64,000 bases of DNA from NCBI GenBank assembly GCA_013204985.1, contig JABMLG010000010.1:1-64000 (forward strand). Direction: 5' to 3'. Of the stretch, positions 11,380 through 27,756 are shown in pieces. The first letter of the stretch is position 1; every line of letters begins with the position of its first letter. The translations under genes and the position numbers were made by a program. The stretch comes from Microbacteriaceae bacterium VKM Ac-2855 (GTDB lineage: Bacteria > Actinomycetota > Actinomycetes > Actinomycetales > Microbacteriaceae). Under the pieces are notes generated by a model that saw only the letters and a program-made list of their open reading frames with translations, was not told where the DNA came from and did not search any database.

Positions 11380-11712
11380 GTGACGGACACGGACCAGCTC
11401 GACGGGCCCTTCGACGAGATCCTGGCCACCGCACCCGACCTCGACGCGATCGCGGTCGAGCTCGCCGACCTGACCGCGTCGAGATGGGTGCACGCGGGCG
11501 GCACCGCCCAGATGGACGTCCTATTGCGCGCTGCGGCCGCCGTCCGCAACACCGCACCGCTCTTGCTCGAGCGAGTGCGTCGGCTCGAGCAGATCGCGGA
11601 TGGTCGGATCGTCCACGTCTATCGCGGTCGCTGCCCCGACCCGATCAACGGGCCCGACGCCCGCGACGGCGAATGCCGCGCCTGCGAGATTCTCGGCGCT
11701 CCGACACCATGA
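11380..11712 (+). CDS. Small protein of a tyrosine-recombinase module
   Basis: A protein of 110 residues from the GTG preceded by CAGGAGG. It is mostly helical and acidic at the N-terminus (EILATAPDLDAIAVELADL). The C-terminal part has four Cys/His-like residues (RGRCPDP... GECRACEIL) that could bind a metal. Its stop overlaps the start of the recombinase gene (ATGA), so the two are translationally coupled. I do not recognise a family. Context suggests an accessory factor for recombination. Confidence 0.75.
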   Translation: MTDTDQLDGPFDEILATAPDLDAIAVELADLTASRWVHAGGTAQMDVLLRAAAAVRNTAPLLLERVRRLEQIADGRIVHVYRGRCPDPINGPDARDGECRACEILGAPTP

Positions 11713-12827
11713 CCGTCTCCGCCGGCACCGACGTCATTGCCACCAGCTCAGCACCGCTCGCTCCGGCGGGGGAGCGGCTCGCGCTGTCGGCCGGTGTGCT
11801 CGAGCTGGGGGAGGCGTCGATCGCTGCGAATACCCGCCGCGCCTACGCCTCGGACCTGCGCGCGTTCGTCAGCTGGTGCGCCGCGCAGGGCCGGTCGCAT
11901 CTGCCGGCGTCGCCGGACACGGTCGCCGAGTACCTCGCTGACCGCGCCAGCATCCTCACCACGGCGGGGGAGTGGCGGTATGCGCCGTCCACGATGACCC
12001 GGTGGCTGTCCGCGATCAACGCCGCCCACGCCGAACACGACTTACCCTTACCCGGACACTCCGCGCTGGTCACCCGCACTCTCAACGGCATCCGCCGTTC
12101 CCGCATCCGCACACCGCGCCAGGCGGATCCGCTGCTGCTCACCGACGTTCAAGCGATCCTGGACAAGATCAGCGTCGACACGTGGCCCGCCGGTGTCACC
12201 GGGATCCGGGACCGGCTGCTGATCCTGATCGGCTGGGCCGGCGCGTTCCGCCGCACCGAACTCGCCGAACTGCGCGTTGGGGATGTAACGCGGCATCGAG
12301 AGGACGGGCTGCAGCTGCGGGTACGGCGCTCAAAAACGGATCAGGAAGGGCGCGGGCTGATCAAGGCGATCCCCTACGGGCGGGAACCCCTCACCTGCGG
12401 GCCGTGCGTGTGGATCCGCTGGCTGCGGGTACTCGCCGCGGCGGAGAAGGGGCGGGCGGCGGTGATGCGGGTGGTCCTCGCTGATGACCCGGGGGTGCAT
12501 GTGTGTCGCAGCACGAGGCCCACCGTCGATGCGGAGACGCCGTTGCTGCGGCGGATGCACAAGACTGGGTTACCGACCGAGGTTGGGCTGTCGGCGCAGT
12601 CGGTGAACCTGATCGTGAAGCGCCGAGTGACCGCCGTTGGCCTCGAGGCGGAGCGGTACAGCGGGCACTCGCTGCGGGCCGGGTTCGTCACCGAAGCGCT
12701 GCGCCATGGGGCGAGCACGCATGCCGTGATGCGGCAGACCGGGCATCGCAACTCCGCCACCGTCGAGGTGTATGCGCGTGAACGCGACCCGCTGACGGGC
12801 AACGCCGTGAACGACCTCGGACTCTGA
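11709..12827 (+). CDS. Tyrosine recombinase/integrase
   Basis: A protein of 372 residues. A core-binding SAM-like domain lies at about 30-130 (ANTRRAYASDLRAFVSWC). The catalytic domain has Arg181 (AFRRTEL), Lys209 (RSKTDQ), His320-x-x-Arg323 (GHSLRAGF), His346 (TGHRN) and the nucleophile Tyr355 (VEVYAR). All key residues are present, so it should be active. The start is the ATG overlapping the previous stop. It is followed three bases later by a third gene, forming a compact trio at the left end of a defence-like island. It is the best candidate for mobilising that island. Confidence 0.94.
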   Translation: MTVSAGTDVIATSSAPLAPAGERLALSAGVLELGEASIAANTRRAYASDLRAFVSWCAAQGRSHLPASPDTVAEYLADRASILTTAGEWRYAPSTMTRWLSAINAAHAEHDLPLPGHSALVTRTLNGIRRSRIRTPRQADPLLLTDVQAILDKISVDTWPAGVTGIRDRLLILIGWAGAFRRTELAELRVGDVTRHREDGLQLRVRRSKTDQEGRGLIKAIPYGREPLTCGPCVWIRWLRVLAAAEKGRAAVMRVVLADDPGVHVCRSTRPTVDAETPLLRRMHKTGLPTEVGLSAQSVNLIVKRRVTAVGLEAERYSGHSLRAGFVTEALRHGASTHAVMRQTGHRNSATVEVYARERDPLTGNAVNDLGL

Positions 12828-12830
12828 GCC

Positions 12831-13757
12831 ATGATGGCCATTCTGGAGAAGCTGCCGGTCTCGAGCAGACCTCACTGGCAGCTCTACGTCGACTGGTGTG
12901 AGGCTCGCGGAATTGTGCCGGTGCCCGCATCGGTCAAGCAGTTGGCCACGTACGCGCAGGAGGTTCCGGCGGCGTTCAGCACGACAGTCGCCCGGATCCG
13001 CGCAATCCGGATCGCACACGAATTGGCCGGTGCACTATTCCCGTACCCCGCGCCAAGCCCCGTACCTGCCGTGCGGAGCGGGAAGGAGTGGGCGTCTATC
13101 CCGGACGCGATCGCCGCGGTGCCGGTGACTCGGTATCCGGTGGGCTTGGTCGGTCGCAGAGACGCGTTCGTGCTGCTGCTGCTGGACCTGTTGCGGCTCA
13201 GCCGGCGCCAGGCGGGCGCGGTGAGCGTCGCTGAGGTCGACCCGGATCGGTGGTTTATTGCTGGCGTCGAGCTGCTGCGCACGGATCCGGCCGCTACGTG
13301 CGCACGCTGTGTGCTTTCACGCTGGCTGCGCGTGCTGGGACCGGCCGCGCTCGGCCGCCGGCTGAGCGCTGCAGAGGTCCTGGACCCTGGCTTGCATACC
13401 GAGTCACATGACTGCGATGAACCGCTGGATGCGGCATGGACGTCGGCGCCGGTTCTGCTGCCGGCCATCGATCAGCACGGCTGGCTCGACAACCACCGTC
13501 CCCTCAGCATCCGCACCATCTCCGCGATCACCGCCACACGACAAGATCCCACCGTCGAGCCGGCGGACAACTATCCAAAGTCTCGAACCCGACGTGACAC
13601 ACCTGCGATGTCCCTCCGGGAGGTCGCGGACGCGCACGACGATCTCGATGAACGTGTCGCCGCACTCCTGCTGCACACCAGGGATCTGTTGGCCCAAATC
13701 GAGGCGCCCGCACCGGCCACCCGGCCGGTCACGGCCAGGCTGGAGCGGGAGGATTGA
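12831..13757 (+). CDS. Recombinase-associated protein, probably a degenerate tyrosine recombinase
   Basis: A protein of 308 residues, starting 3 bp after the recombinase stop. The N-terminal 90 residues (WQLYVDWCEARGI... RIRAIRIAHE) resemble a SAM-like core-binding domain. DAFVLLLLDLLRLSRRQAGAVS resembles the first catalytic helix region, with Arg in place. A Cys pair (CARC) follows. The later HxxR, H and Tyr motifs are absent, and the C-terminus is a Pro/Ala-rich tail. My inference is an inactive recombinase paralogue that assists the partner enzyme. It could also be an unrelated DNA-binding accessory protein. Confidence 0.78.
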   Translation: MMAILEKLPVSSRPHWQLYVDWCEARGIVPVPASVKQLATYAQEVPAAFSTTVARIRAIRIAHELAGALFPYPAPSPVPAVRSGKEWASIPDAIAAVPVTRYPVGLVGRRDAFVLLLLDLLRLSRRQAGAVSVAEVDPDRWFIAGVELLRTDPAATCARCVLSRWLRVLGPAALGRRLSAAEVLDPGLHTESHDCDEPLDAAWTSAPVLLPAIDQHGWLDNHRPLSIRTISAITATRQDPTVEPADNYPKSRTRRDTPAMSLREVADAHDDLDERVAALLLHTRDLLAQIEAPAPATRPVTARLERED

Positions 13758-13861
13758 GTTGAGTGGAACGGGGAGAGAGGCATGGCGGGCGCGGGCGACG
13801 CCGTGCGCGCCAATGCGCCACCGTCTTGACCGGCGCCGTCTCGGCGCGGAACCGTTGCCTT

Positions 13862-15913
13862 GTGAATAGATCACCAGACAGCGCCCCAGTCGAGGTCGTG
13901 ATGACCGGCGCGGGCATCTCGATGCCGCAACCGTCGAACCTTCCCAGCGGGGACAACCTCACCCGCATCGTCTGGCGATGGCTGTTCATGTCGATATCGG
14001 CCGATCCCGCGATCGGGGACGCGGCAGAGGCGCGTCTGGGGTCCCCGAAGGACAAGGAACGTGGCCTCCGACTCGAGCAGCTGCTGGAGGTCGCATCCCG
14101 ATACGTCCCGCTGGAGCAGCTGGTGCTCGTGTACAAGATGATGCAGGGCGAATTCGGCTTCAGTCACCGGGCGCTCGCGCAACTCGATGTGCCTGTTCTC
14201 ACCGTCAACATGGACACGATGCTCGAGCAAGCCGAAGTGCACAGCATCGAGCATCTGCATGGGGTCCGCACGGACTCCGAGACGATCATGACCACGATCA
14301 GTCAGTACTCCGAAGGCCTATCCTCCGAGACCCAGGACAAGCTGCGGGCCGCTGTCGAGGATAAGCACCTTCTCGTCTTGGGTTACAGCGGTCGGGATCG
14401 CGATGTGCTTCCACTGCTTGTCGCGGCCGGACCGAGTCGGGTGACGTGGGTCCGGTACTGGGGCGAGCAGCTCAGCGAGGAAGTGCAGGGGGCGCTGCGC
14501 CGGCTGGAACGGGGGACCAGCGACGACACCGTTACGGTCATCGAGGGCAGTGCTCAGAGATACCTCGCTGAGCTCCTGGACGTGGATCCAGCGTTCGGGT
14601 TGCTGCAGCAAGCGTCTGAACCGCTATCGCCACCCACGGAACCTCCCGACGAACTCATTCGGGAACTGCGGCAGAGCACGGACGAAGATCAGAGACGACT
14701 TGCGGTTGCGAACATCCTCTTCGAACTCGGCTTGTACGAGCAGTCCCGCGCCATCCTGGAGCGATCTCTGGAAACGGTGCCGCGGCGATTGGAGGCACGA
14801 AAAACCATCGCGCGCGGCTACCGGCGGCAACGCGCGTATTGGCGCAGCGTCGCGACGCTGCTGCGACCGCCGCTGAAGTACACGCCCGGCCAGATCGCGA
14901 ACGAGCTCATCGTCGCGCTGCGTCACACCAGCGCCTGGCCCATCGGTGTTCTGATGGACCGCGCGATCATCTGGCGCGGCCGAAACAGTCCCGATGAGCG
15001 CACGCGTGCAGGCGCCAGGTTGGCCGCCTCCCGTGAGCGACAGCGAGCGATCAACTCCGGCAACGTGCCGGCCGCTCTGCGCGGCATCGATCAAACTCTC
15101 GCGGACGCGCAAGGACTGAACCGACAAAGCCGAGTCGACGAGGCAACGTGGGCGGCGGATGCGATCGCGCTTTCTGGCAACTACGCGCGCGCCTTGGACC
15201 TGGTCGAGACGGCTCTCGCCGACGCGCACTATTCCGACCGATCCCAGCACGCCTATCTCCTGTCGAAGCGTCTGGAGCTACGGCTCACGGCCGGTTCGAT
15301 CCGTGCTGGCGCGCTCTCGGACCGGGACCGGATGGAGATCGACGACGCCGCCGACTTTGCGCAAGAGGCCGCTCACAATGGTGCAGAGGTGCTCTGGTTC
15401 ACCATCGTCCACGCCGCCTGCTTCGGCGCCTCCACCGACGGCTCCGCGCGCCGACTGCTCGAGGAGGCGCGAAGCTACCTAGACGCCGCAACGGGCAGCG
15501 AACGACCGTTCCTGCTCTTGCACAGCGCCGAGCAGGCACGGTTCGATGGAGACGACGCGCTGTGCCGCCAAGAGCTCGCCGCGCTCAGACGCGCACTTCC
15601 CCGACGTGTCGTTGGCCGCGGGCGATCGTTCCGTCTCGCTGCCCGCCTCATCGAACTCCAAGCCGACATCGGCGGCCACGTGAAAGCGGATGCTGCCCTG
15701 CTGACCCGCGCTCGGGAGCTACAAGCTGCCTACCGTCGCGTACATATCCCTGCCCCCGCGGCGTGGCTGGACACCACCATCGCCCTACTGGAGAACCGAG
15801 ACGTCGAAGACCGAGCCATCACCACCATGACCCAACGCGGATGGCACCTCGAGGCAGCACGAGCGCGACACCCGCACGAACGCGCGTTGTCACGCTGGCC
15901 CGTCATCGTCTGA
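13862..15913 (+). CDS. SIR2-like NADase domain fused to TPR-like helical repeats
   Basis: A protein of 683 residues from the GTG at 13862. The longer upstream frame is basic, low-quality sequence. SIR2 signatures are MTGAGIS (about 14-20), TVNMD with Asn116, HLHG with His133, and LVLGYSGRDRDV (172-182). Residues 260-680 form Ala/Leu-rich helical repeats typical of TPR arrays. Such SIR2-like proteins deplete NAD during phage attack in several known systems (for example Thoeris ThsA and DSR proteins). Here the sensor would be the repeat array. It lies immediately after the recombinase trio and before a membrane protein on the same strand. The exact system is not one I can name. Confidence 0.88.
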   Translation: MNRSPDSAPVEVVMTGAGISMPQPSNLPSGDNLTRIVWRWLFMSISADPAIGDAAEARLGSPKDKERGLRLEQLLEVASRYVPLEQLVLVYKMMQGEFGFSHRALAQLDVPVLTVNMDTMLEQAEVHSIEHLHGVRTDSETIMTTISQYSEGLSSETQDKLRAAVEDKHLLVLGYSGRDRDVLPLLVAAGPSRVTWVRYWGEQLSEEVQGALRRLERGTSDDTVTVIEGSAQRYLAELLDVDPAFGLLQQASEPLSPPTEPPDELIRELRQSTDEDQRRLAVANILFELGLYEQSRAILERSLETVPRRLEARKTIARGYRRQRAYWRSVATLLRPPLKYTPGQIANELIVALRHTSAWPIGVLMDRAIIWRGRNSPDERTRAGARLAASRERQRAINSGNVPAALRGIDQTLADAQGLNRQSRVDEATWAADAIALSGNYARALDLVETALADAHYSDRSQHAYLLSKRLELRLTAGSIRAGALSDRDRMEIDDAADFAQEAAHNGAEVLWFTIVHAACFGASTDGSARRLLEEARSYLDAATGSERPFLLLHSAEQARFDGDDALCRQELAALRRALPRRVVGRGRSFRLAARLIELQADIGGHVKADAALLTRARELQAAYRRVHIPAPAAWLDTTIALLENRDVEDRAITTMTQRGWHLEAARARHPHERALSRWPVIV

Positions 15914-16839: not shown

Positions 16840-19212
16840 TCAGTTCGTCAGCTGGTCGCGCCATGATCGCGCAGAGGCTTGGATGCCACTGAGTAGTTTG
16901 AAGGCGTTATCGACTGCGTGGCTCATCGGACGGAGGTGGCGAGAGAAATTGCCCATTGTGTGCAGCTGTTGCTGCATCGTGTCCGCCCCCGGCAGCTGGA
17001 GCGTACGCACAAGTCCATCGAGGGACTCAAAAAGCTGCGTTCGACTTGATTGATCCGGCACATCGCTCATTATGCGCGCGACCCGGGCAAGGGTCGAATC
17101 GTACAACTGCCAGATCTTTCCCAACTCGGTGGTAGCCGATTCGAGATGCGCAACTGGCTCCCTCAGGTCGTTTCCGACATCAGCCATCGCTTTCGCGGTG
17201 GCGTAGGTTTGACTTGTTCTCAGCGGTGGACGGTCTCGGAAGACCGCACCAATTTCGCCAAAAGCGTCCTTAAAATCGGTCACAGCCGACTGAAAATCTT
17301 CCTGGCGTCCTTCGACAGCCTCCATGAGTTCGATCAAGTCGCGGTCGTCGCGGCGGGTCTTTGTGCTTTCTGGCTTTTTGCCCGCTGTTGCGCCCTGATC
17401 GACGGTCTGGCGTAGTCGGTTCGCTACCTCCTCGAGGAGGCTGTCGTATTCCGGCGATCCGGGTTGAAGTCGTCGTACCTCGGTCGCATCGACGAAATGA
17501 GTGCTCAGGATCTTTGCGAGAACCGGATCTTCTGGGTCAACGACGTGGCTGTTCTTGATGTCGACCCACTGCAAGGGGAGGAGAAGCTTGGGCTCATCGG
17601 CCGCTTCGGCAGCCGCGCTGAACGCCAAGAGCTCACGGCGGCAGGCCTCGCTCTGTAAATAACGTGGCGTGACGATCGCGAGCATAAACGATGTGCTTTC
17701 GGCCTCTGTTTGCAGGCGTTTGCTCCAGGTCTCGCCCCAGTTGATGCTGTCGCGGTCGACAAACAGTTCGATGGTTCGGCCGAAAAGGAACGCATACGTT
17801 TCGACCAAGTCCTTCGCAAACTGGACCATCTTGCCGCCGGAGCGCTCATTATCGGCGTGGACGTAGCTCAGGAACATGGTTGCGTCATTTGACCCGAGCA
17901 GTGTGGCGGTGGGTGATGTCACTGTGTTTGCTCTCTCGGGAGGTCGAATTGTGGGTGCAAAAGTTGTGCTAGTACTGAGGCTTGTCATTGGCATCGCCCA
18001 AATATTCGTATCGAGTTGAAGTACCTCAGTTCCGGTGTAAAAAATGAATCCGCGATGCAGCCCACGTTCACGTTCGAGTGCTTGAAGGGGCGCCATGTCT
18101 CTGGGGTGCAGTGTTCGCGAGGCTTTAACCTCGATTCCCACATGTCTCCCCACCCCGTCCACGAGGACCAGGTCTACCTCGGGGCTTGTGCTACTGGCCT
18201 GACGCCAGAAGAATTGATCCGTTTGCAGGTCGGACCATTGCGCGGAGGCGATGACTTGATTTACGACGTGGCTTTCCACCAGCGCGCCAAATTGCTCTCT
18301 CTCGGTAAGAACATCGATGCCGGCGCGGGCGAACGACTCAACGGAGAACGATGTGTCGACCGGATGGATCTTCGAGCGTGCGTGGCTCTGGTTGGCTGCG
18401 GTGGTAGCGAGGTTGGGGATCCAATGGAGGAGGAAGAGTCGCTCAAACATGCCAAGGTAGCGATCGACCGTTCTTCGGTCCAAATCGAGTCGTTGACCCA
18501 TTTTGCTTGCGTTGAAGATTCCTCCCGGACTGCGTAAGAGGCCGTCGAGAGCTGTTCGAGCTATCGTCGAGTCGTATCCGCCGGAGGGTAGAGCCGCGTC
18601 GCTGAGAGCGGCAATTATGTCTGAGCGGATCTGCTCAAGGCTCTGACGTCGTGTCCGAATCACGTCGGGGTAGACGTAGCTGGGGAAGCCGCCGATTTGC
18701 ATCTGGTTAAGAAGCTCTTGATCCGTCGTGTCTTCGTATCGCTGTGTCAGCACCTCGCTGTCGAACAGGGCGTCGACGAGTGAACCTGGTTGAGCGGCTA
18801 TTTCCCATTGTGTGAGTGGACTCATGGAGAGCCGGCGTGAGCGTCGGGTGAGCGGATCGGCGCCACCGAGTCCTGTGCGTCCGATCGAAGCGGATCCCGT
18901 GAGGATGAAGTGTGTCTCGGCGCTCAGCTGGTCGACCATTTCCTTCAGGAGGATAGGTAGGTCCGGGAGCAGTTGGGCCTCGTCGATGATGGCGGGCCGC
19001 CGAAGCTGTCGAAGCCACCCCGCAGGATCGGCACTAGCAAACCGAAGAGTCGTCGGGTCCGCCAAGGTCGCGTACGAGTAGCCTGCGGGCTCGATCTGGT
19101 TCCGCATCAGAGTGGTCTTGCCGACAGCGCGCGCGCCTTCGAGAATCACGACGGGCGCTCCCTGCGCGGTCAGCAGCGTGTTGCCAATGGGGCGATGCAG
19201 AACCTGTGCCAT
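16840..19212 (-). CDS. AAA ATPase / DUF4143 protein fused to a TIR domain
   Basis: A protein of 790 residues from the ATG at 19212; the longer frame upstream is shadow. Domain order: AAA ATPase with Walker A GARAVGKTT (26-34) and Walker B AIIDEAQ (74-80); the DUF4143 region to about 400, with an EVDLVL...IEVKAS nuclease-like motif (Asp347, Glu361-x-Lys363); a Pro/Thr linker; a TIR domain from about 443 (ATMFLSYVHADN), with the putative catalytic Glu527 in SEACRRELL; and a helical C-terminus of about 190 residues. TIR domains cleave NAD or make signalling nucleotides. The fusion suggests an ATPase sensor driving a TIR effector. It is divergent from the helicase gene with a shared 174-bp promoter region. 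Confidence 0.92.
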   Translation of the reverse strand: MAQVLHRPIGNTLLTAQGAPVVILEGARAVGKTTLMRNQIEPAGYSYATLADPTTLRFASADPAGWLRQLRRPAIIDEAQLLPDLPILLKEMVDQLSAETHFILTGSASIGRTGLGGADPLTRRSRRLSMSPLTQWEIAAQPGSLVDALFDSEVLTQRYEDTTDQELLNQMQIGGFPSYVYPDVIRTRRQSLEQIRSDIIAALSDAALPSGGYDSTIARTALDGLLRSPGGIFNASKMGQRLDLDRRTVDRYLGMFERLFLLHWIPNLATTAANQSHARSKIHPVDTSFSVESFARAGIDVLTEREQFGALVESHVVNQVIASAQWSDLQTDQFFWRQASSTSPEVDLVLVDGVGRHVGIEVKASRTLHPRDMAPLQALERERGLHRGFIFYTGTEVLQLDTNIWAMPMTSLSTSTTFAPTIRPPERANTVTSPTATLLGSNDATMFLSYVHADNERSGGKMVQFAKDLVETYAFLFGRTIELFVDRDSINWGETWSKRLQTEAESTSFMLAIVTPRYLQSEACRRELLAFSAAAEAADEPKLLLPLQWVDIKNSHVVDPEDPVLAKILSTHFVDATEVRRLQPGSPEYDSLLEEVANRLRQTVDQGATAGKKPESTKTRRDDRDLIELMEAVEGRQEDFQSAVTDFKDAFGEIGAVFRDRPPLRTSQTYATAKAMADVGNDLREPVAHLESATTELGKIWQLYDSTLARVARIMSDVPDQSSRTQLFESLDGLVRTLQLPGADTMQQQLHTMGNFSRHLRPMSHAVDNAFKLLSGIQASARSWRDQLTN

Positions 19213-19386
19213 GACTGAAACTGTACACGCATCAACGCAAAAAATGTACGTGCGGTGACCAAAATACGGCTGGCCTGGACGGGCGAAGTTGACTCCGTCG
19301 AGAAATCTCGCACTGGCGGGTGGATTGCGACCGTGGGAGGCTGACAGGCGGGCGGCGGTATCAAGCCCGTCATCTCCGGAGGTTTC

Positions 19387-21963
19387 ATGTCCCCGTTCCG
19401 AGTGCCCCCCTCTGCTGCGCATGCGCCGTCAACTCCGTTGGATATGTATGTAGACCTGCCTCGGGCGAGCGATGCGCCGTCGAGCGGGTTGTGGTTGCAT
19501 CAAGGCGACGTGATCCGGGAGTTCATGACGCACGTGGACGACCCCGACCTCGCACTCCAGCTCCCAACCGGAACCGGAAAGACTCTCACTGGTCTGTTGA
19601 TCACCGAGTGGACCCGACGCGCGCGAGTCGGGCGGGTGATTTACGCCTGCCCGATTCAGCAGCTCGCCAAGCAGGTCTACGCGGGTGCGGTCGTCGAAGG
19701 TATCCAGCCCGTGCTTCTGATCGGCAAGGCACGCTTGTGGTCGGCGGCAGATCAAGCCCGCTACGAAGCAGGTGAGGCGATCGCGATCACGACCTACAGT
19801 TCCGTGTTCAACACGAATCCCAAGTTGGCGGCCGCCGACCAGATCCTCTTCGACGACGCTCACGCGGGGGAGCAGTACGTCGGCGAGAAGTACGGAGTCG
19901 AGATTGACCGGCGGGACAGCCCTACCGAATATTTCGCCCTACTGGAGGCGGTTCAAGGCGGTCTCGATGGCGTGTACCTGGACCGCCTGCGCGAGCGGAC
20001 GCCGGACCCGACCGTTTCCGAAGCTGTCCGGCTCGTAGTGCCGCTTCGTCAGGAGGGTATGACCGATCGCATCGCTCGCGTCCTTAGCGGATTCACTGGC
20101 GACCTCGGTTTTCAGTACGCGATGATTCGGGACATCCTCCGGTCGTGCCTGATGTACGTCTCCTACACCGGAATCCTGATCCGGCCGTACCTTCCACCGA
20201 CCGAACGGAACACTCTGTTCGCCGGGGCGAGACAGCGCCTCTACGTGTCGGCCACACTCGGGGACGGGGGCGAGCTCGAGCGAGCCTTCGGCCGTCGCAG
20301 CATCACCCGGCTGACGGCTGCGGTGGACAAGAGCTCGCTGCTTTCCGGTCGGCGGTTCTTCATCTTCCCCGAACTCGCGGCAACGAACGCTCCCAGCTCC
20401 CTCGGAAAAGACATCGTTGAACGGGCAGGCAAAGCTCTGGTCCTCGCCCCCAGTCGCACCCGTGCCGAAGCTGCGGCGGATGCGCTCGGCGGCCACGGGT
20501 GGCGCCGCTTCACGATCGACGACGTCAGCGAGGGGATGGCCCCTTTCGCGAAAGCAAAGCATGCCGTGTGCGGGCTCGCGAGCCGCTACGACGGACTCGA
20601 CCTGCCCGGCGACTCGTGCCGCTGCGTCGTCATGGACCAGATACCAGACCAGGACAGCCTTCAGGAGCGCTTCCTATCAGGTCGAGCGCGCGCCAGCATC
20701 GCGTTCTCGGAGCGGGTGCGAGCACGCGTCATTCAAGGAACCGGGCGTGCGACGCGCGGCCCGCGCGACATCGCAGTTGTGCTCATCTACGGATCGGAAC
20801 TTGCCCGGTACCTGTCACGACCGGAGACGATCGCGTCGATGGATCCAAACCTGCAGGCGGAGATCAAATTCGGTCGCGAGAACTCGCAGACCATCGAACC
20901 GGCCGAGATCCTCGCCAACGTGGACTCCTTCCTCGAGCGTGCACCCGAATGGCTGCAGGAAGCCGAACCGGCAATCGCGAAAGTTCGAGACGGCAGTCCC
21001 CGAAAGGTCACTGACGCCGCACGTGCACTGCAGGCATCCGTCTCGGAGGAAATCCTGGCATGGGAGGACGCCGGCGTCGGACGCTGGCGGTCAGCGGCTG
21101 CGCACGCACAGCAGGCGGTCGAACTCATCGGTGCTGGCAAGCGGGAGACCGATGGCTACCGGGCATTCTGGCTGTATCTCGCAGCACTGTGGACTGATCA
21201 GGTCGCCTCAGACGAAGCGGACACCGCGCTGCATGCCGCGGCACTGTCCTTGATCGACCGTGCTGAAGAGATCGTCGGGTTCGGCACATGGCTTCGGGAG
21301 ATGCCGCCGCTGCCGGCACAGCGTGCACCAATCCTGGCGCCCGCAGATGCTGTCGCGATCGACACCATCACCGCTCGCCTTGAAACACACGCGAAACTGG
21401 ACCGCATTCCACGCGAACTCGGGGAGATGATCGCGGGGTTGCAAGCGACGTCGGCAGACGAATACGAGCCGGCACTGCGCGCACTCGGAGAGTTCCTTGG
21501 AGCTGACTCAACAAAACCCAAATCGACGGCACGACCGGACTGCGTATGGGCCTGGGGAAACGATATGTGGCTCATCCTTGAGGCGAAGTCCGACCACGGC
21601 CCCACCGGTGTAGTCCAGGTAAAAGACATCCGACAGGCGAACACGCAGCGCGACCTTGTTGTCAAAGACCGAGCCGTGCTTCAGCCACCAGCGTCGAACG
21701 CAACCGTCATCATCAGCCCTCGCGCAACGGTCCACCACGACGGCGTCACCGTGGCCTATCCCCAGCTCTACCTAGCTAACCCGAGCGAGGTGGTGCTGAA
21801 TCTGGGGTACGACATTCAGGCGGTCTGGGCCGATCTTCTACGAACAAGCCACGGCCTGACATGGAAGGAGTTGCGCAGCCGAGTGACAGACGCGCTGAAC
21901 TCCAGACTGGTGCTTCCCTCGCAAGTATTCGAACGAATGACGCGAGACCCAATCAACCCATGA
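19387..21963 (+). CDS. DEAD/DEAH-like helicase fused to a PD-(D/E)XK nuclease-like domain
   Basis: A protein of 858 residues, ATG after CGGAGG. Helicase motifs: Q-like LWLHQGDVIREF, Walker A PTGTGKT (60-66), DDAH box (156-159), SATLGDGG (motif III) and the C-terminal QGTGRATRGP (motif VI). The spacing resembles XPD/DinG-type superfamily 2 helicases, without the Cys cluster of the FeS domain. A helical middle region follows. At the C-terminus RPDCVWAW...LILEAKS gives Asp718 and Glu733-x-Lys735, the core of a restriction-like nuclease. This is a likely nucleic-acid-degrading defence enzyme. Its divergent neighbour is the AAA-TIR fusion. Confidence 0.92.
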   Translation: MSPFRVPPSAAHAPSTPLDMYVDLPRASDAPSSGLWLHQGDVIREFMTHVDDPDLALQLPTGTGKTLTGLLITEWTRRARVGRVIYACPIQQLAKQVYAGAVVEGIQPVLLIGKARLWSAADQARYEAGEAIAITTYSSVFNTNPKLAAADQILFDDAHAGEQYVGEKYGVEIDRRDSPTEYFALLEAVQGGLDGVYLDRLRERTPDPTVSEAVRLVVPLRQEGMTDRIARVLSGFTGDLGFQYAMIRDILRSCLMYVSYTGILIRPYLPPTERNTLFAGARQRLYVSATLGDGGELERAFGRRSITRLTAAVDKSSLLSGRRFFIFPELAATNAPSSLGKDIVERAGKALVLAPSRTRAEAAADALGGHGWRRFTIDDVSEGMAPFAKAKHAVCGLASRYDGLDLPGDSCRCVVMDQIPDQDSLQERFLSGRARASIAFSERVRARVIQGTGRATRGPRDIAVVLIYGSELARYLSRPETIASMDPNLQAEIKFGRENSQTIEPAEILANVDSFLERAPEWLQEAEPAIAKVRDGSPRKVTDAARALQASVSEEILAWEDAGVGRWRSAAAHAQQAVELIGAGKRETDGYRAFWLYLAALWTDQVASDEADTALHAAALSLIDRAEEIVGFGTWLREMPPLPAQRAPILAPADAVAIDTITARLETHAKLDRIPRELGEMIAGLQATSADEYEPALRALGEFLGADSTKPKSTARPDCVWAWGNDMWLILEAKSDHGPTGVVQVKDIRQANTQRDLVVKDRAVLQPPASNATVIISPRATVHHDGVTVAYPQLYLANPSEVVLNLGYDIQAVWADLLRTSHGLTWKELRSRVTDALNSRLVLPSQVFERMTRDPINP

Positions 21964-22851: not shown

Positions 22852-23256
22852 CGCCGACGAGGGAACGGCGTGTCCTCGAGGAGCGGCGGTGGAGATGCCG
22901 CGTCAGGCTGGCACATCCCTCAACCAGACCTCCCTCCATTCGAGGACGGGTGCACAGTGACGGCGAATGCGACGGGTCGGCGGGCCTTCCAGCCGGCCGC
23001 GAGGGGCACGTGGCGGTGATGGAGCATCGCGGGTTCGGACCTGCTTCGCGGCCCGCCTGTCGAATTTCTGACCCTTCTAGGGTTTGACCGAGTTCGCTTC
23101 GACGGTGCGTGCCGCGGTGGTCGCATGCTCCTTGATTCCGCGTACCACCTCGGCACTTCATCGTCTGCACTCAAACGGAACTTTCCCGCTCGAGAGGCAC
23201 ATACTCTCAACCGGTCAGGCCAGTAGGCGCGGCCGGACTTGAGTTCGTTGGAGCAT
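22852..23256. other. Intergenic region without a recognisable gene
   Basis: The frames that stay open here are Arg/Ser/His-rich and lack motifs. The DNA separates the small membrane-protein operon from the kinase module and ends at the resolvase-site-like repeats. A few short AT-richer patches may hold promoters, but no clear -35/-10 pair is visible. Confidence 0.35.
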
Positions 23257-23300
23257 GGTCTCGCATCCGATGCGTTATGAGACAGGTGTGTTATGAGACA
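23257..23300. other. Resolvase-site-like motifs, left of the kinase module
   Basis: GTTATGAGACA occurs twice in direct orientation (23274-23284 and 23290-23300). GTCTCGCATC at 23258-23267 faces the first copy and makes an imperfect inverted pair around GCATCCGATGC. The reverse complement TGTCTCATAAC resembles the arms next to the serine recombinase gene at 26.4 kb and, more loosely, the TGTCY-type half-sites bound by Tn3/gamma-delta resolvases. The kinase gene begins 112 bp further on. The function is inferred from motif and position. Confidence 0.45.
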
Positions 23301-23411
23301 CGCGGATAGTTCTCGGAGCCAGCTCCGCGCCGCTTTTGCGGAGACGGCATGGCTCGACACGCCGCGGAGAGCACCAGCCCAATTCTCCGCCTAGCTCGCT
23401 ATGTTCGAGTC

Positions 23412-24257
23412 ATGACTGTCGCAGATGACAAGCTCGTGGGGGAAGCCGTTGCAGCGTTCGGGCTGACGGACGAAGGGCCAGTAGGCGCTGTCGGTGGTCA
23501 GAAGGCCGTGCGCCGCGTCTCACGAGACGGGCAAACGTTCGTACTTAAGGTTGTGGCTCTGGAATTCACGACCGACGAGACACTCAAGCGCGCCGAACGG
23601 GAGGTGCAACTCCTCGCCAGCATCGACAACGCCAATGTGGTCAGGGTCGAATCAGAGCTAAAAGAGCTAGGGGCTCCCGTGCACGGAGCGGCTTGGATGG
23701 AAGAGTATTTAGACGGTGACGATCTGGGTAACCTCATCGGGAACAGCCCATGGTCCTGGGCCGATGCCAAGCTCATGGGCGTCGAAGTGGCCAACGGTTT
23801 GGCTGCGGGACACGAGAAGTCCGTCATCCACCGCGACTTGAGCGCCAATAATGTGCGCCGTCTTAGCGATGGCACCTATAAGGTGCTGGACTTCGGATTC
23901 GCGCGCCACACGCTCCGCTCGGGACTAACGGTCGCAGGGCAGCCAGGAACGCGGGGTTATCTGACGCCCGAGCACCTGAACAGCTATAGCGGCGGCCCCA
24001 TGCAGATGTCGGACGTGTTCCAGGTCGGTATTCTCATGTACACGGCATTGAGCGGCGTTTCGCCGTACCCGTGGACCGGGGACGACAACGAATATATCAC
24101 TCGCCTTCGGAACGGCGCGGTGACTCCGCTTGGGAGTCACCGACCGGATCTCTCCCCCGAGCAGATCGAACTGATTCACAGGGCACTACATCAACAACCC
24201 GCGCGACGGTTCCGAAGCGCGGCGGCCCTACGCGACGCGTTGATGGCGACCCCATGA
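23412..24257 (+). CDS. Serine/threonine protein kinase, compact form
   Basis: A protein of 281 residues, starting at ATG 23412 (MTVADDKLVG). It is a complete kinase fold with little else: a short Gly-rich loop region (VGGQKAVRR), Lys46 in VLKVV, Glu64 in helix C, the catalytic HRDLSANN (140-147), the DFG motif at 160-162 (LDFGFAR) and a PGTRGYLTPE activation/APE segment. There is no PASTA or membrane domain, unlike housekeeping PknB-type kinases, so it is a soluble dedicated kinase. Its stop overlaps the next start (ATGA). Small kinases of this kind occur in defence islands, where they phosphorylate partners or host proteins. Confidence 0.9.
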   Translation: MTVADDKLVGEAVAAFGLTDEGPVGAVGGQKAVRRVSRDGQTFVLKVVALEFTTDETLKRAEREVQLLASIDNANVVRVESELKELGAPVHGAAWMEEYLDGDDLGNLIGNSPWSWADAKLMGVEVANGLAAGHEKSVIHRDLSANNVRRLSDGTYKVLDFGFARHTLRSGLTVAGQPGTRGYLTPEHLNSYSGGPMQMSDVFQVGILMYTALSGVSPYPWTGDDNEYITRLRNGAVTPLGSHRPDLSPEQIELIHRALHQQPARRFRSAAALRDALMATP

Positions 24258-25423
24258 CCACGTTCATTGAGGATAGCCCGCGCTCGTTCCAGGCCGGATG
24301 GATAGCGCACGCTCACCAAGCTGGCACCGCGACGGGTGCAGTCATCACCCCGTGGGCCTCGCCCTACGTGCACCGTGGTGGACCCGGCCTGAAACCTGGA
24401 ATCGACAATCGCGTCCAAGAGCTGCGGGATGCTGGGGTGGCGGTGTGGTTTGACGCAACCACTCACGCGCTCCAAATGCCGGGAGTGGGTGACTTCCGGT
24501 ATTACGCGGAGTACAACCTTTGGGGTGGGCCGGTCGGCGACCTCACGCAAGACGCCTACCGCCGCGAGCACGTGCGTCGTGTTTTCAAGCACCAGACGGA
24601 ACTAGGAGTACCCCTTGTCGCTCCCGCTCCCTTGCTTCCGTCAGGACTCAATAACGTCAGTACGCTCGCACTCGACACAGCTCGGATCGCTCTCGAGCTC
24701 CAGCCGACAGCCTGGTTCACCGTCGCCGGGGTTGGGACCTTCTGGAGTGATAGGCACGACCTTGATGCCCATGTGGGAGCATTGGCCGCGCTAGCACCCC
24801 AAGGCTGGTTCATCTCATTCGTGCAACCGGACAATGAACTGCCCCCAAAGCTCATCGCGGAGGAGGTCTACGGGATCTGTCGCACTGTGCGGGCGCTCAG
24901 TGAGTACGCGCCCGTTCACGTGTCGCACGGCGACTTTTCCGCGCTCCCCGCGGTCGCGGCGGGCGCGACCACAGTAGGGACAGGGTGGGACAAACGCCAA
25001 CGCGTGTTGTCATACACTGACTACGCGGCACGCCCCGAGACGACAGGCCAGGCGAGCTGGTACCAGCGTCCCAGTTTCCGCGGTCTCCTTGGGACACTAG
25101 ATCGAAAAGCCGATGGCGCGTTGCTTCAGCAACAGGATCCAGCCCTCGCGGCCAGGCTCGGCGGGCTCGCGCCCGTGCCAAGTGTTGAGGGCACGTTCCA
25201 GCATCATGTTGCCGAGCTCAGTGCAGCGATTCAGCGGATCCAGGGCACGGGGCACTCGTACCGCCAGCGTTACGACGAACTAGACCGCATGTACACAGAG
25301 GCATCTACGGGCTGGGCTGCCGTCCAAGCGGCAACCGGTCTACGCGACCGCTCCAATCTCTGGGTGAACGCCTATCAGCAGGGTTTACGTATGTACGGGC
25401 ACAGCGAGGGCTGGATCGTTTAG
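24254..25423 (+). CDS. Conserved protein of unknown function coupled to the kinase
   Basis: A protein of 389 residues, translationally coupled to the kinase by an ATGA overlap. It is soluble. Alternating hydrophobic strands and helices (VAVWFDATT, GVPLVAPAPLL, AWFTVAGVG, APVHVSHGDF, TTVGTGWD) with Asp/His-rich loops at strand ends would suit an alpha/beta barrel, but I recognise no family. The last 90 residues are helical, perhaps a dimer or binding region. The 3' end overlaps the convergent nuclease-like gene by 39 bp. Such tight packing suggests that the three genes move as one unit. Confidence 0.85.
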   Translation: MTTFIEDSPRSFQAGWIAHAHQAGTATGAVITPWASPYVHRGGPGLKPGIDNRVQELRDAGVAVWFDATTHALQMPGVGDFRYYAEYNLWGGPVGDLTQDAYRREHVRRVFKHQTELGVPLVAPAPLLPSGLNNVSTLALDTARIALELQPTAWFTVAGVGTFWSDRHDLDAHVGALAALAPQGWFISFVQPDNELPPKLIAEEVYGICRTVRALSEYAPVHVSHGDFSALPAVAAGATTVGTGWDKRQRVLSYTDYAARPETTGQASWYQRPSFRGLLGTLDRKADGALLQQQDPALAARLGGLAPVPSVEGTFQHHVAELSAAIQRIQGTGHSYRQRYDELDRMYTEASTGWAAVQAATGLRDRSNLWVNAYQQGLRMYGHSEGWIV

Positions 25424-26125
25424 TCCCGACTGGGTCGCTGCCGCAAAGAGCTCCCAAGCCTGAACCCGCCTCCGCTCCGCGGTGAGCCCAAGCCGCGGTC
25501 GCACGACCCAACGGCCCTCCACCATGAGGCCGCCGCGGTCATGAATAACCTCGGATACAAGAGCGGTCTGGGCACGAGCAGAAATCTGCCCCATAACCAG
25601 GACGTAGCTGTCAGCCCAAACGCGGTAGGTGCGCACTTGTCGAAGCGCGGAACGCCAGTCTTCTACCTTTGCCTCGATGGCGTACAGCCGTCCGCCCGGC
25701 TCCAACGCGTCAGGGCGTACGTAGCGGTCCGGCCCAACCTCGATAAGGGCACCGCGCCGTACGAGACGCCTGAGCCGGTCAGTGATCGCGGAAGTGGGCC
25801 AACCCTGGGCATCGGCGAGATGAGCGGCGCTCAATGAGCGGCGCACATGCGCTGATGAAACGATGCCGGCTTCCAGCTCGTTGATAACCGGGGCAACGGC
25901 GAGGCGGTGACGACGCCGTATGTGTTCAATGTTGCCAACGTAGGCGGTGAAGTCGGGGATTCCGAATGGTCCAGCAAACTCAGGGACGACCACGAGACCT
26001 CGGTTGGCTCCCTGCAAAGCCTGGACGGCGGCTAGTGCATGTTGGTGCAGCTCGCGTTCCTGAACGGGCTCAAAACGCCGCCCCGCCCGCGGGTTGGAGG
26101 TCGCGATCTCAAGCGCGTATGCCAT
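25385..26125 (-). CDS. PD-(D/E)XK nuclease-like protein with an inserted winged helix
   Basis: A protein of 246 residues from ATG 26125 (a GTG two codons earlier is possible). The nuclease-like core is split: VVVPEFAGPFGIPDF with Asp58, then RLYAIEAKVEDWRSALRQV with Glu151-x-Lys153. This IPD...EAK arrangement is the restriction-endonuclease signature. Between them, at about 90-140, lies a winged-helix-like segment (AHLADAQGWPTSAITDRLRRLVRRGALIEV). It is convergent with the kinase operon and overlaps it. The combination suggests a DNA-binding nuclease or a nuclease-derived regulator. Confidence 0.8.
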   Translation of the reverse strand: MAYALEIATSNPRAGRRFEPVQERELHQHALAAVQALQGANRGLVVVPEFAGPFGIPDFTAYVGNIEHIRRRHRLAVAPVINELEAGIVSSAHVRRSLSAAHLADAQGWPTSAITDRLRRLVRRGALIEVGPDRYVRPDALEPGGRLYAIEAKVEDWRSALRQVRTYRVWADSYVLVMGQISARAQTALVSEVIHDRGGLMVEGRWVVRPRLGLTAERRRVQAWELFAAATQSGLNDPALAVPVHT

Positions 26126-26254
26126 GGTCACCGTCCATCGAGTCGACTCTAGTACTACGCGCCCCTACTGACGCCCGGGTCACAACGCCGTCTGCCGGCC
26201 GTCTCGAGAAATCAAGGACGACGGCAGCGGCTGGTATATCTGATGCGATCGAAC

Positions 26255-26423
26255 GTCTCATAACCCTTGGGATACAAGACGTCTCGCCGGTTCGGGAAGC
26301 GCGACCAGAGTTCGCGGCAGAAATCGCCGGAACTACGCCAGATCCTGAAGGTGCGGCGATTCTTGCAACTATGTCTCGCAACCGTCTGGTTCAATTCGAG
26401 TACTCATCGTTGGTTACGAGACA
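26255..26423. other. Resolvase-site-like region upstream of the serine recombinase
   Basis: TGTCTCGCAACC (26372-26383) and GGTTACGAGACA (26412-26423) form an inverted pair with one mismatch, separated by 28 bp. A third copy, GTCTCATAACC, lies at 26255-26265. Serine resolvases typically bind such paired 12-bp arms beside their own gene, and the recombinase starts 14 bp after the last arm. The arm sequence recurs at 23.26-23.30 kb on the other side of the kinase module. Confidence 0.5.
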
Positions 26424-26436
26424 GTTTGGAGCGCTA

Positions 26437-27018
26437 GTGGCGAAGTTGATCGGTTACGCGCGTGTGTCGACGCGTCAGCAGTCCACCGATCGGCAGCAGG
26501 TCGACCTTCTCGCGGCCGGCGTTCGCCGTGATGACCTCTACATCGATCACGGCGTTTCTGGCGCCCGAGCCTCCCGGCCGCAGTTCGATCACGCCCTCGA
26601 GGCACTGATCGAGGGCGACACTCTGGTGATCACGACTCTGGATCGCCTGGGCCGGTCGACGCAGAACATGCTCGCGTTCGCCGACGAGCTCCGTGCTCGA
26701 GGCGCTGGCCTTCGGGTGCTGAACCTGGGCGGGGGAGATGTCGACACGTCGAAGCCGATGGGGTCGATGCTCTTCACGATCATGGCAGCGCTGGCGCAGA
26801 TGGAGCACGAAATTAAGCGCGAGCGGGTGACCGATTCGATCAGCAAACGTCGGGAGGCCGGCAAGGACCTCGGTGGCCGGCCGCAGCGGATCACGGACAG
26901 TCAGATCCGCAATGCGATGCGTCTCGTGGGGGGCGGGGAACCGGCCGTGCAGGTTGCACGCGACCTGGGCATGTCCCGTGCGACGTTTTACCGTCGCTCG
27001 GCCGCGTTGACACGGTGA
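26437..27018 (+). CDS. Serine recombinase (resolvase/invertase family)
   Basis: A protein of 193 residues from the GTG preceded by TTGGAG. It has the catalytic domain with IGYARVSTRQQ (nucleophile Ser11), then LVITTLDRLGRST and GSMLFTIMAALAQMEHE, followed by the C-terminal HTH (AVQVARDLGMSRATFYRR). Length and layout are those of resolvase/DNA-invertase enzymes of Tn3-like and related elements, not large serine integrases. It is probably intact and active. It lies next to inverted 12-bp arms, so it may excise or invert the neighbouring DNA. Confidence 0.94.
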   Translation: MAKLIGYARVSTRQQSTDRQQVDLLAAGVRRDDLYIDHGVSGARASRPQFDHALEALIEGDTLVITTLDRLGRSTQNMLAFADELRARGAGLRVLNLGGGDVDTSKPMGSMLFTIMAALAQMEHEIKRERVTDSISKRREAGKDLGGRPQRITDSQIRNAMRLVGGGEPAVQVARDLGMSRATFYRRSAALTR

Positions 27019-27019
27019 G

Positions 27020-27220
27020 TTACCGGTAGACGGCCCAGACGTCGTCGGGGAGGTGATGGGTGTCGTTGTCGACGAGCACGACCCACGCGTTGGAGCTGTG
27101 TCCTTGGTAGCGACCGTGCAGGATCTCCGGGAACCATCCGTCCCTGGTTTGGATCCAGCGGATGAATCGGGCGGTGCCGCCTCGGCGGAGCAGGGATCCG
27201 TGATCGGTATCGAGAGCCAC
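27020..27220 (-). CDS. Small hypothetical protein
   Basis: A protein of 66 residues from GTG 27220, ending 2 bp from the convergent recombinase stop. The sequence is mixed and protein-like (TARFIRWIQTRDGWFPEIL, VVLVDNDTHHLPDDVWAVY) with many aromatic residues. This argues against a shadow frame, but no family is recognised. It could be a remnant of a longer gene. Confidence 0.45.
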   Translation of the reverse strand: MALDTDHGSLLRRGGTARFIRWIQTRDGWFPEILHGRYQGHSSNAWVVLVDNDTHHLPDDVWAVYR

Positions 27221-27408
27221 ACCTCATCGTCGCGAATGCGCTCGCGCGGTGGGGTCATCGCGGAGACGATTCCCAGCGAGGGAGGGGTGACGCCTCGAGT
27301 TGCCGCCGAGCAGCATCGAGCTCTGTCGGCCGGCACGTGACCGAAGGACGCTGCATTCACAGTTAACCTGAACGCGCTCGGGTCGTGTCGAGGAATGTAG
27401 AGGACACC

Positions 27409-27756
27409 GTGGCGCAGAAAGTCGTATTGGTCGATGACATCGATGGCAGCACCATCGTGGACGGCCGAGGTGGCACGGTCGTCTTCTCCGTTGACGACGT
27501 CGCCTATGAGATCGACCTGACTGCCCGCAACGCCGGCCGCCTCCATGTCGCGCTTGCTCCCTTCATCGACGCAGCTCGAGCCTCTGTCGGCAGCGCCAAC
27601 CGCTCCCGCGTGACGGCGATCGCGGCCAGTGCCGGCCGGAAGAGCCCGGAGATGCTGGCCGCGATCCGACATTGGGCGTCGCAGCACGGGCATAACGTGC
27701 CGAAAACCGGCCGCATCCCGTCGGACGTGCAGGCCGCGTACGACGCCGCACACTGA
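27409..27756 (+). CDS. lsr2: Lsr2-family nucleoid-associated silencer
   Basis: A protein of 115 residues. The GTG start at 27409 follows AGAGGA and gives the usual MAQKVVLVDDIDGS opening. The N-terminal dimerisation domain (FSVDDVAYEIDL) is followed by a linker and a C-terminal DNA-binding domain (IRHWASQHGHNVPKTGRIP). Lsr2 binds AT-rich DNA in the minor groove and silences horizontally acquired genes, like H-NS. The usual Arg-Gly-Arg hook reads Thr-Gly-Arg here, so DNA binding may be altered. The gene follows the recombinase island directly, where a silencer would be expected on mobile DNA. It may not be the only Lsr2 in the genome. Confidence 0.92.
   Translation: MAQKVVLVDDIDGSTIVDGRGGTVVFSVDDVAYEIDLTARNAGRLHVALAPFIDAARASVGSANRSRVTAIAASAGRKSPEMLAAIRHWASQHGHNVPKTGRIPSDVQAAYDAAH

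Follow-up and report, generated by a model that had tools for sequence, protein, structure and literature searches.

Background

TGT-family proteins (TGT, tRNA-guanine transglycosylase) have precedents in defence. Cap10 of type IV CBASS has a TGT-family fold that was remodelled for an anti-phage role, in which it binds a modified protein (PMC11996544). DpdA of the Dpd system is a TGT-fold protein tied to DNA restriction, and in BREX-related capture (BRC) a TGT gene has been recruited to defence loci (both in PMC12839542). In CapK/CapS and the CapK/CapS-like VapC systems, a kinase controls the effector of defence, which in one of them is a nuclease.

Here we describe a trio of genes, 2.7 kb in total, which encodes a kinase, a protein with a predicted TGT fold and a PD-(D/E)XK-type nuclease, and which appears to be a hitherto undescribed system of defence against viruses. 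It lies in a stretch of 64,000 nucleotides from Microbacteriaceae bacterium VKM Ac-2855 (GCA_013204985.1, contig JABMLG010000010.1, positions 1 to 64,000, forward strand), which as a whole we call the window.

The three proteins

The features of the locus are listed in Table 1. As the initial annotation had stated, the three genes are present in the sequence, the kinase and TGT-like genes overlap by ATGA (24254-24257), and the TGT-like and nuclease genes overlap tail to tail by 39 bp (25385-25423).

Table 1. Features of the trio locus and its flanks, in window coordinates
Feature	Position	Strand	Basis
Ser/Thr protein kinase, 281 aa	23412..24257	+	Pkinase E 7e-30; start by DNA homology
TGT-fold (tRNA-guanine transglycosylase-like) protein, 389 aa	24254..25423	+	predicted model, TGT structure matches
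PD-(D/E)XK-type nuclease with inserted winged helix, 248 aa, convergent	25385..26131	-	model, motif conservation
Left resolvase-type site, outside the trio	23258..23300		imperfect 26-bp palindrome GTCTC...GAGAC (by eye) and one extra arm
res-like site of the adjacent resolvase, three arms, outside the trio	26255..26423		plasmid copies of this resolvase have similar sites upstream
Small serine resolvase, GTG start, 193 aa, neighbour outside the trio	26437..27018	+	Resolvase E 3.6e-38; plasmid matches

DNA similarity to the locus of Arthrobacter sp. 260 (L012) covers window positions 23412-26154 at 70% identity; it begins exactly at the kinase ATG 23412, extends 23 bp beyond the start of the nuclease gene, and is the sole match within the 21-kb locus of that strain. 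Since the similarity starts at this ATG, a kinase length of 281 aa is more likely than one of 302 aa. No domain beside Pkinase was found in it. The kinase has what defines a Hanks-type Ser/Thr kinase, namely the Pkinase profile, the Lys, the HRD motif and the Asp of DFG/DPG, and its catalytic residues are complete: K46 is kept in 19 of 20 aligned loci, and E64, H140-R141-D142, N147 and D160 are kept in all 20. This alignment, which is used throughout, comprises the trio loci except L020, where the TGT-like gene is split in two frames, L091 and L092.

The initial annotation had placed the 389-residue protein in an unknown family. In sequence searches the window protein matched no Pfam (TGT included), PADLOC or PHROGs family at E up to 1; PDB sequence searches found no TGT, and hhalign against five bacterial TGTs gave probabilities below 1% (0.4% and 0.2%). 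Matches to WXG100 (E 0.06) and to a debrominase (E 0.04) were set aside as chance. Structure prediction did assign a fold: the AlphaFold model (pLDDT 75.5, pTM 0.81, with low confidence at 245-275) has the overall fold of TGT (PF01702 family). Foldseek alone gave TM values of 0.42 to 0.49 to TGTs, and its matches also included barrels such as xylose isomerases, from E 1.9e-4.

Because the homology to TGT is invisible at the sequence level, statements about the active site rest on the fold match and a short register. In this register, which comes from weak hhalign alignments, the column presumed to hold the nucleophile is G, A or S in 20/20 loci (Gly242 in the window protein); in TGT the nucleophilic Asp is Zm D280. 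An Asp that would correspond to TGT D102 by strand order is kept in 20/20 loci. The zinc site of TGT has the form CxCxxC...H. This motif is absent from the window protein, which has a single Cys, and a CxCxxC resembling it occurs only in the three proteins of type B (defined below; L083 6711-8108, L084 9448-10860, L089 5821-7194), which also carry an acidic N-terminal tail. Judged from the predicted model, the TGT-fold protein seems to be without the TGT nucleophile. The host assembly has no TGT match and no QueC match, so that 7-deazaguanine is probably not home-made there, with uptake being possible.

In the nuclease (model pLDDT 87.5), the winged helix sits between D60 and E153-x-K155. Residues E51, D60, E153, K155 and Q165 are kept in 20/20 loci, which gives the D...ExK motif. 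Structure matches were winged-helix proteins and 3dnx, and in the comparison of the PD-(D/E)XK core fold Foldseek found no match at E <0.001. The nucleases of L086 and L087 are without the winged helix.

Distribution and conservation

A match for the TGT-like gene was found in 4/398 genomes of the family, 5/396 of the order and 3/396 of the phylum, with the window genome included each time. One of the four family matches, in G159 (L004), was dropped: it covers 63 aa with two stops (E 1e-4), and the 3.2-kb locus has neither of the other two genes. Among 72,556 plasmid records a single one, from Dietzia, matched the window protein (P0002), and phage records contained no match for P0002 or P0020. 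Scans of genome contigs and viral contigs with P0002 as single protein found nothing; alignment queries for the TGT-like gene found at least nine loci in genome contigs and also matched viral contigs.

After merging repeats, there are 23 distinct loci. The kinase and nuclease genes adjoin the TGT-like gene in 23/23 of them, where the window, L005, L006/L014 and L007 match by construction, as the search profiles were built from them, and the remaining loci are independent. Orthologues that occur apart had been named beforehand as the observation that would speak against a compact, undescribed three-gene unit; every locus carries the complete trio, and the unit is supported.

For this analysis we labelled three types. 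Type A (15 loci) consists of the window, L005, L007, L012-L020 (L014 being L006), L056, L057 and L085; its hosts include Arthrobacter (L012), Leifsonia (L013), Cryobacterium (L014), a Pseudonocardia MAG (L015), Serinicoccus (L016), Knoellia (L017), Microbacterium hominis (L018), Mycobacterium europaeum (L019), a Nocardioidaceae MAG (L020) and a Dietzia plasmid (L005). Type B (three loci) consists of L084 and of plasmids of Kineococcus (L083) and Arthrobacter FB24 (L089), and type C (four loci) of L086, a Polaromonas plasmid (L087), a plasmid of the haloarchaeon Natribaculum breve (L088) and a viral contig (L091). A further viral contig, L092, carries the trio beyond types A-C. The trio is found in bacteria, in an archaeon and on viral contigs, with 5/23 loci on plasmids (L005, L083, L087, L088, L089) and 2/23 on viral contigs. 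The nuclease gene is convergent in 19/23 loci; the type C loci, four in number, have all three genes in one direction, in the order nuclease-kinase-TGT-like.

The nuclease profile, with at most six candidates scored per genome, matched 91/396 genomes of the order sample, nearly all over the winged helix alone. A few short matches reach past the winged helix, for example in G581 (positions 32-143, one stop) and G002 (80-170). Matches over at least 190 of 247 positions were found in six of the 396 genomes (G000, G637, G655, G657, G443, G499), and all of them are trios; those in G443 and G499 led to type B loci. The partial match in G670 is likewise a trio.

We see that protein distances over the 20 aligned loci are correlated (kinase/TGT-like 0.97, kinase/nuclease 0.95, TGT-like/nuclease 0.94), and in permutations of the distance matrices 0/2000 reached each observed r. 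The correlations fit joint inheritance, and simple descent with the host could also produce them. In summary, there is hardly any doubt that the trio is a conserved three-gene system.

Arms and serine resolvase beside the trio

The initial annotation had also pointed to repeated arms round the block and to a serine recombinase 14 bp past the last arm, and both are there. Five exact copies of GTTRYGAGAC occur in the 64 kb, all round the block (23274, 23290 and 26413 on the forward strand, 26255 and 26373 on the reverse strand); in 300 dinucleotide shuffles the mean was 0.56 and none reached five. In a looser test, with an arm one base longer and one mismatch, six copies were observed for 2.84 expected, and 9/100 shuffles reached six. 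Directly to the right of the resolvase lies a gene for an Lsr2 nucleoid protein (27385-27756, +).

The annotation went on to treat arms and recombinase as integral to the unit and as moving it, and this part found no support. With 23200-27100 as query, 45 plasmid records match at 60-80% identity, none of them over 80% of the query, and the matches of the 30 that are listed fall within about 26354-27010, the stretch of the resolvase and right arms. Dietzia, the genus of the sole plasmid match for P0002, is absent from the genus tally of these plasmid matches; the Arthrobacter FB24 plasmid of type B may be among the 15 outside those listed. Four plasmids that were inspected have different genes upstream of the resolvase. 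Their arm-like sites lie at comparable positions; one plasmid has them complete, the other three in degenerate form. In the congener G301, the resolvase is 88% identical, the stretch upstream of it is similar (by eye), and the 19 kb that were read contain no trio. On these grounds the right arms and the resolvase look like a separate unit, and the recombinase of the window appears to be a plasmid gene that has no relation to the trio.

No plasmid matches 23250-23345, the stretch round the left site. The site resembles a resolvase core site, with the central dinucleotide AT against TT at the right (by eye); serine recombinases are expected to need identical central dinucleotides. The arms are absent from the three trio loci checked (L005, L006, L012). 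Small serine recombinases do lie close to the trio in L006 and L012, and at up to about 4 kb from it in L005; they vary in orientation and in how closely they resemble that of the window. No empty-site genome was found in these locus, plasmid and congener comparisons.

Genomic neighbourhood

We scanned 20 large proteins from 11 loci against PADLOC, one to three per locus within about 10 kb. As a raw count from hand-picked neighbours, the choice of which favoured large suspicious genes, and without a background rate, named defence genes stand near the trio in 6/11 scanned loci, or 7/12 with the window. These are pieces of an Eco57I-like methylase (L005), PD-Lambda-1 (L007), a type IIG R-M (L013), DISARM DrmMI/DrmA (L015), a type III R-M (L017) and a type I R-M (L056), and in the window a PDC-S28 helicase, a PDC-S01/TIR fusion and a SIR2-like gene. 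No countable defence neighbour was found for the one protein scanned in each of L012, L018 (a PIN-TPR-GreABC protein), L019, L020 and L057. The MADS-model matches of L019 are actually an ABC transporter.

In the window, the AAA_14/DUF4143 and TIR fusion (PDC-S01-like; 16840-19260, -) is divergent from the helicase (19387-21963). At 11484-15913 (+) a gene of the phage-integrase family, a 308-aa protein and the SIR2-like protein of 716 aa follow in a row, possibly an island edge with another defence gene. On the Dietzia plasmid L005 (14068-17748), the Eco57I-type methylase adjoins the trio and is apparently split by an IS1634 transposase. In two lineages ychF is directly beside the trio (L020 11159-13217, L057 8338-10332), with the nuclease gene downstream of it in the same direction; this flank is a possible shared insertion site.

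On the viral contig L092 (2850-8350), the trio has HTH and IrrE-type genes on one side and a phage integrase on the other, and temperate phages often keep immunity cargo at such positions. On L091, a capsid gene follows the trio, and a weak Mu-F match below the Pfam cut-off precedes it.

Proposed function and alternatives

The genomic context makes a role in defence likely, in line with the defence part of the earlier proposal of a mobile defence or toxin-like module; its mobility by arms and recombinase found no support. The TGT-like protein would be a sensor or adaptor that binds nucleic acid or a nucleobase and performs no base exchange. Once it meets DNA or RNA of an invader, or a nucleotide altered by infection, the kinase would phosphorylate the TGT-like protein or the nuclease; this may free the winged-helix nuclease to cut DNA, either that of the phage or that of the host (abortive infection). 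Where the genes are convergent, transcription of the nuclease gene runs against that of the kinase/TGT pair, and the nuclease level might stay low until induction. The choice of sensor and of kinase substrate is conjecture, and a self-contained three-gene defence cassette with this detailed mechanism is a plausible, if tentative, reading.

Among the alternatives, it is rather unlikely that the trio works like a toxin-antitoxin unit, with a nuclease toxin restrained by the kinase and/or the TGT-like protein and mainly stabilising plasmids or islands. The small size, the plasmid and viral loci and the opposite transcription of nuclease and partners in most loci would suit it, but a set of three genes, which encodes a kinase and a large TGT-fold protein, is heavy for such a pair, the trio is also found beside the chromosomal gene ychF, and the two categories, toxin-antitoxin and defence, overlap in any case. 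A regulatory or housekeeping module outside defence, e.g. a kinase-controlled DNA repair or transcription unit, is unlikely: the patchy occurrence in the family, order and phylum samples and the presence on islands, plasmids and viral contigs argue against it, even if the nuclease has a winged helix, the trio is rare yet in diverse genomes, and some loci have no visible defence neighbour.

We find it quite unlikely that the trio is a Dpd-like analogue of restriction-modification, in which the TGT-like protein would mark host DNA by base exchange or removal, the nuclease would cut unmarked DNA and the kinase would tune the system. The fold of the predicted model, the conserved Asp at the presumed D102 position and the precedent of DpdA, a TGT homologue that modifies DNA beside restriction genes (PMC12839542), speak for it. 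Against it are the G, A or S at the presumed nucleophile, the lack of a PADLOC match, the zinc motif missing from the window protein, and a host that probably does not make 7-deazaguanine, although it might take it up. That the trio is a mobile element with the arms and the recombinase as integral parts is very improbable; the arms on both sides exceed chance and other trios have small serine recombinases nearby, but the resolvase and its site occur elsewhere without the trio, L005, L006 and L012 have no such arms, their recombinases vary in orientation and in likeness to that of the window, and the left and right core sites differ at their centre.

The defence reading is the one that we regard as probable. 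A wider form of it would be a new immune class of bacteria, archaea and phages that has three or more sub-types and in which a former TGT enzyme acts as a non-transglycosylating sensor, or performs new chemistry, together with a dedicated kinase and a winged-helix nuclease; this form is plausible but speculative.

Comparison with known systems

We compared the trio with described systems using the 2023 version of PADLOC and a literature search. Type IV CBASS is made up of a CD-NTase, the QueC-like Cap9 and Cap10; genes for a CD-NTase or a QueC-like protein are absent from the trio, which has a kinase and a PD-(D/E)XK-type nuclease, neither the TGT-like protein nor the nuclease has a PADLOC match, and the host assembly gave no QueC-family match. 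Dpd would call for a match to the DpdA model and home-made preQ0; the TGT-like proteins have no PADLOC match, the host has no QueC match, and the trio differs in having three genes only and in not keeping the presumed nucleophile. The BRC genes PglZ, DUF6079, STAND, DUF4007 and HerA are not among the trio genes. CapK resembles anti-sigma-factor kinases, and the abstract that describes it mentions no TGT-like protein.

The trio kinase matches the PADLOC models of PD-T4-6 and of MADS MAD6 / PglW (E 7.6e-38 and 1.5e-30), and it belongs to the same general Ser/Thr kinase family; it stays far below the NCBIfam cut-offs (81.5 bits against 460 for MAD6, 35.5 bits against 990 for PglW), and it differs from these kinases in its 281 aa and two dedicated partners. 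No description of the trio was found among the matches listed in the search of open-licence papers, and text searches in PMC13092281 and PMC13279940 gave no mention of TGT.

As a gene set the trio matches none of the families tested, and it is apparently undescribed. To CBASS and Dpd, in which the TGT fold has only lately been seen as a component of immunity, it adds a testable three-gene system. If our reading is true, protein phosphorylation, nucleobase recognition and DNA cutting would here be joined in one small transferable unit, and its three genes would make a simple case in which to study the role of a TGT that has lost its nucleophile.
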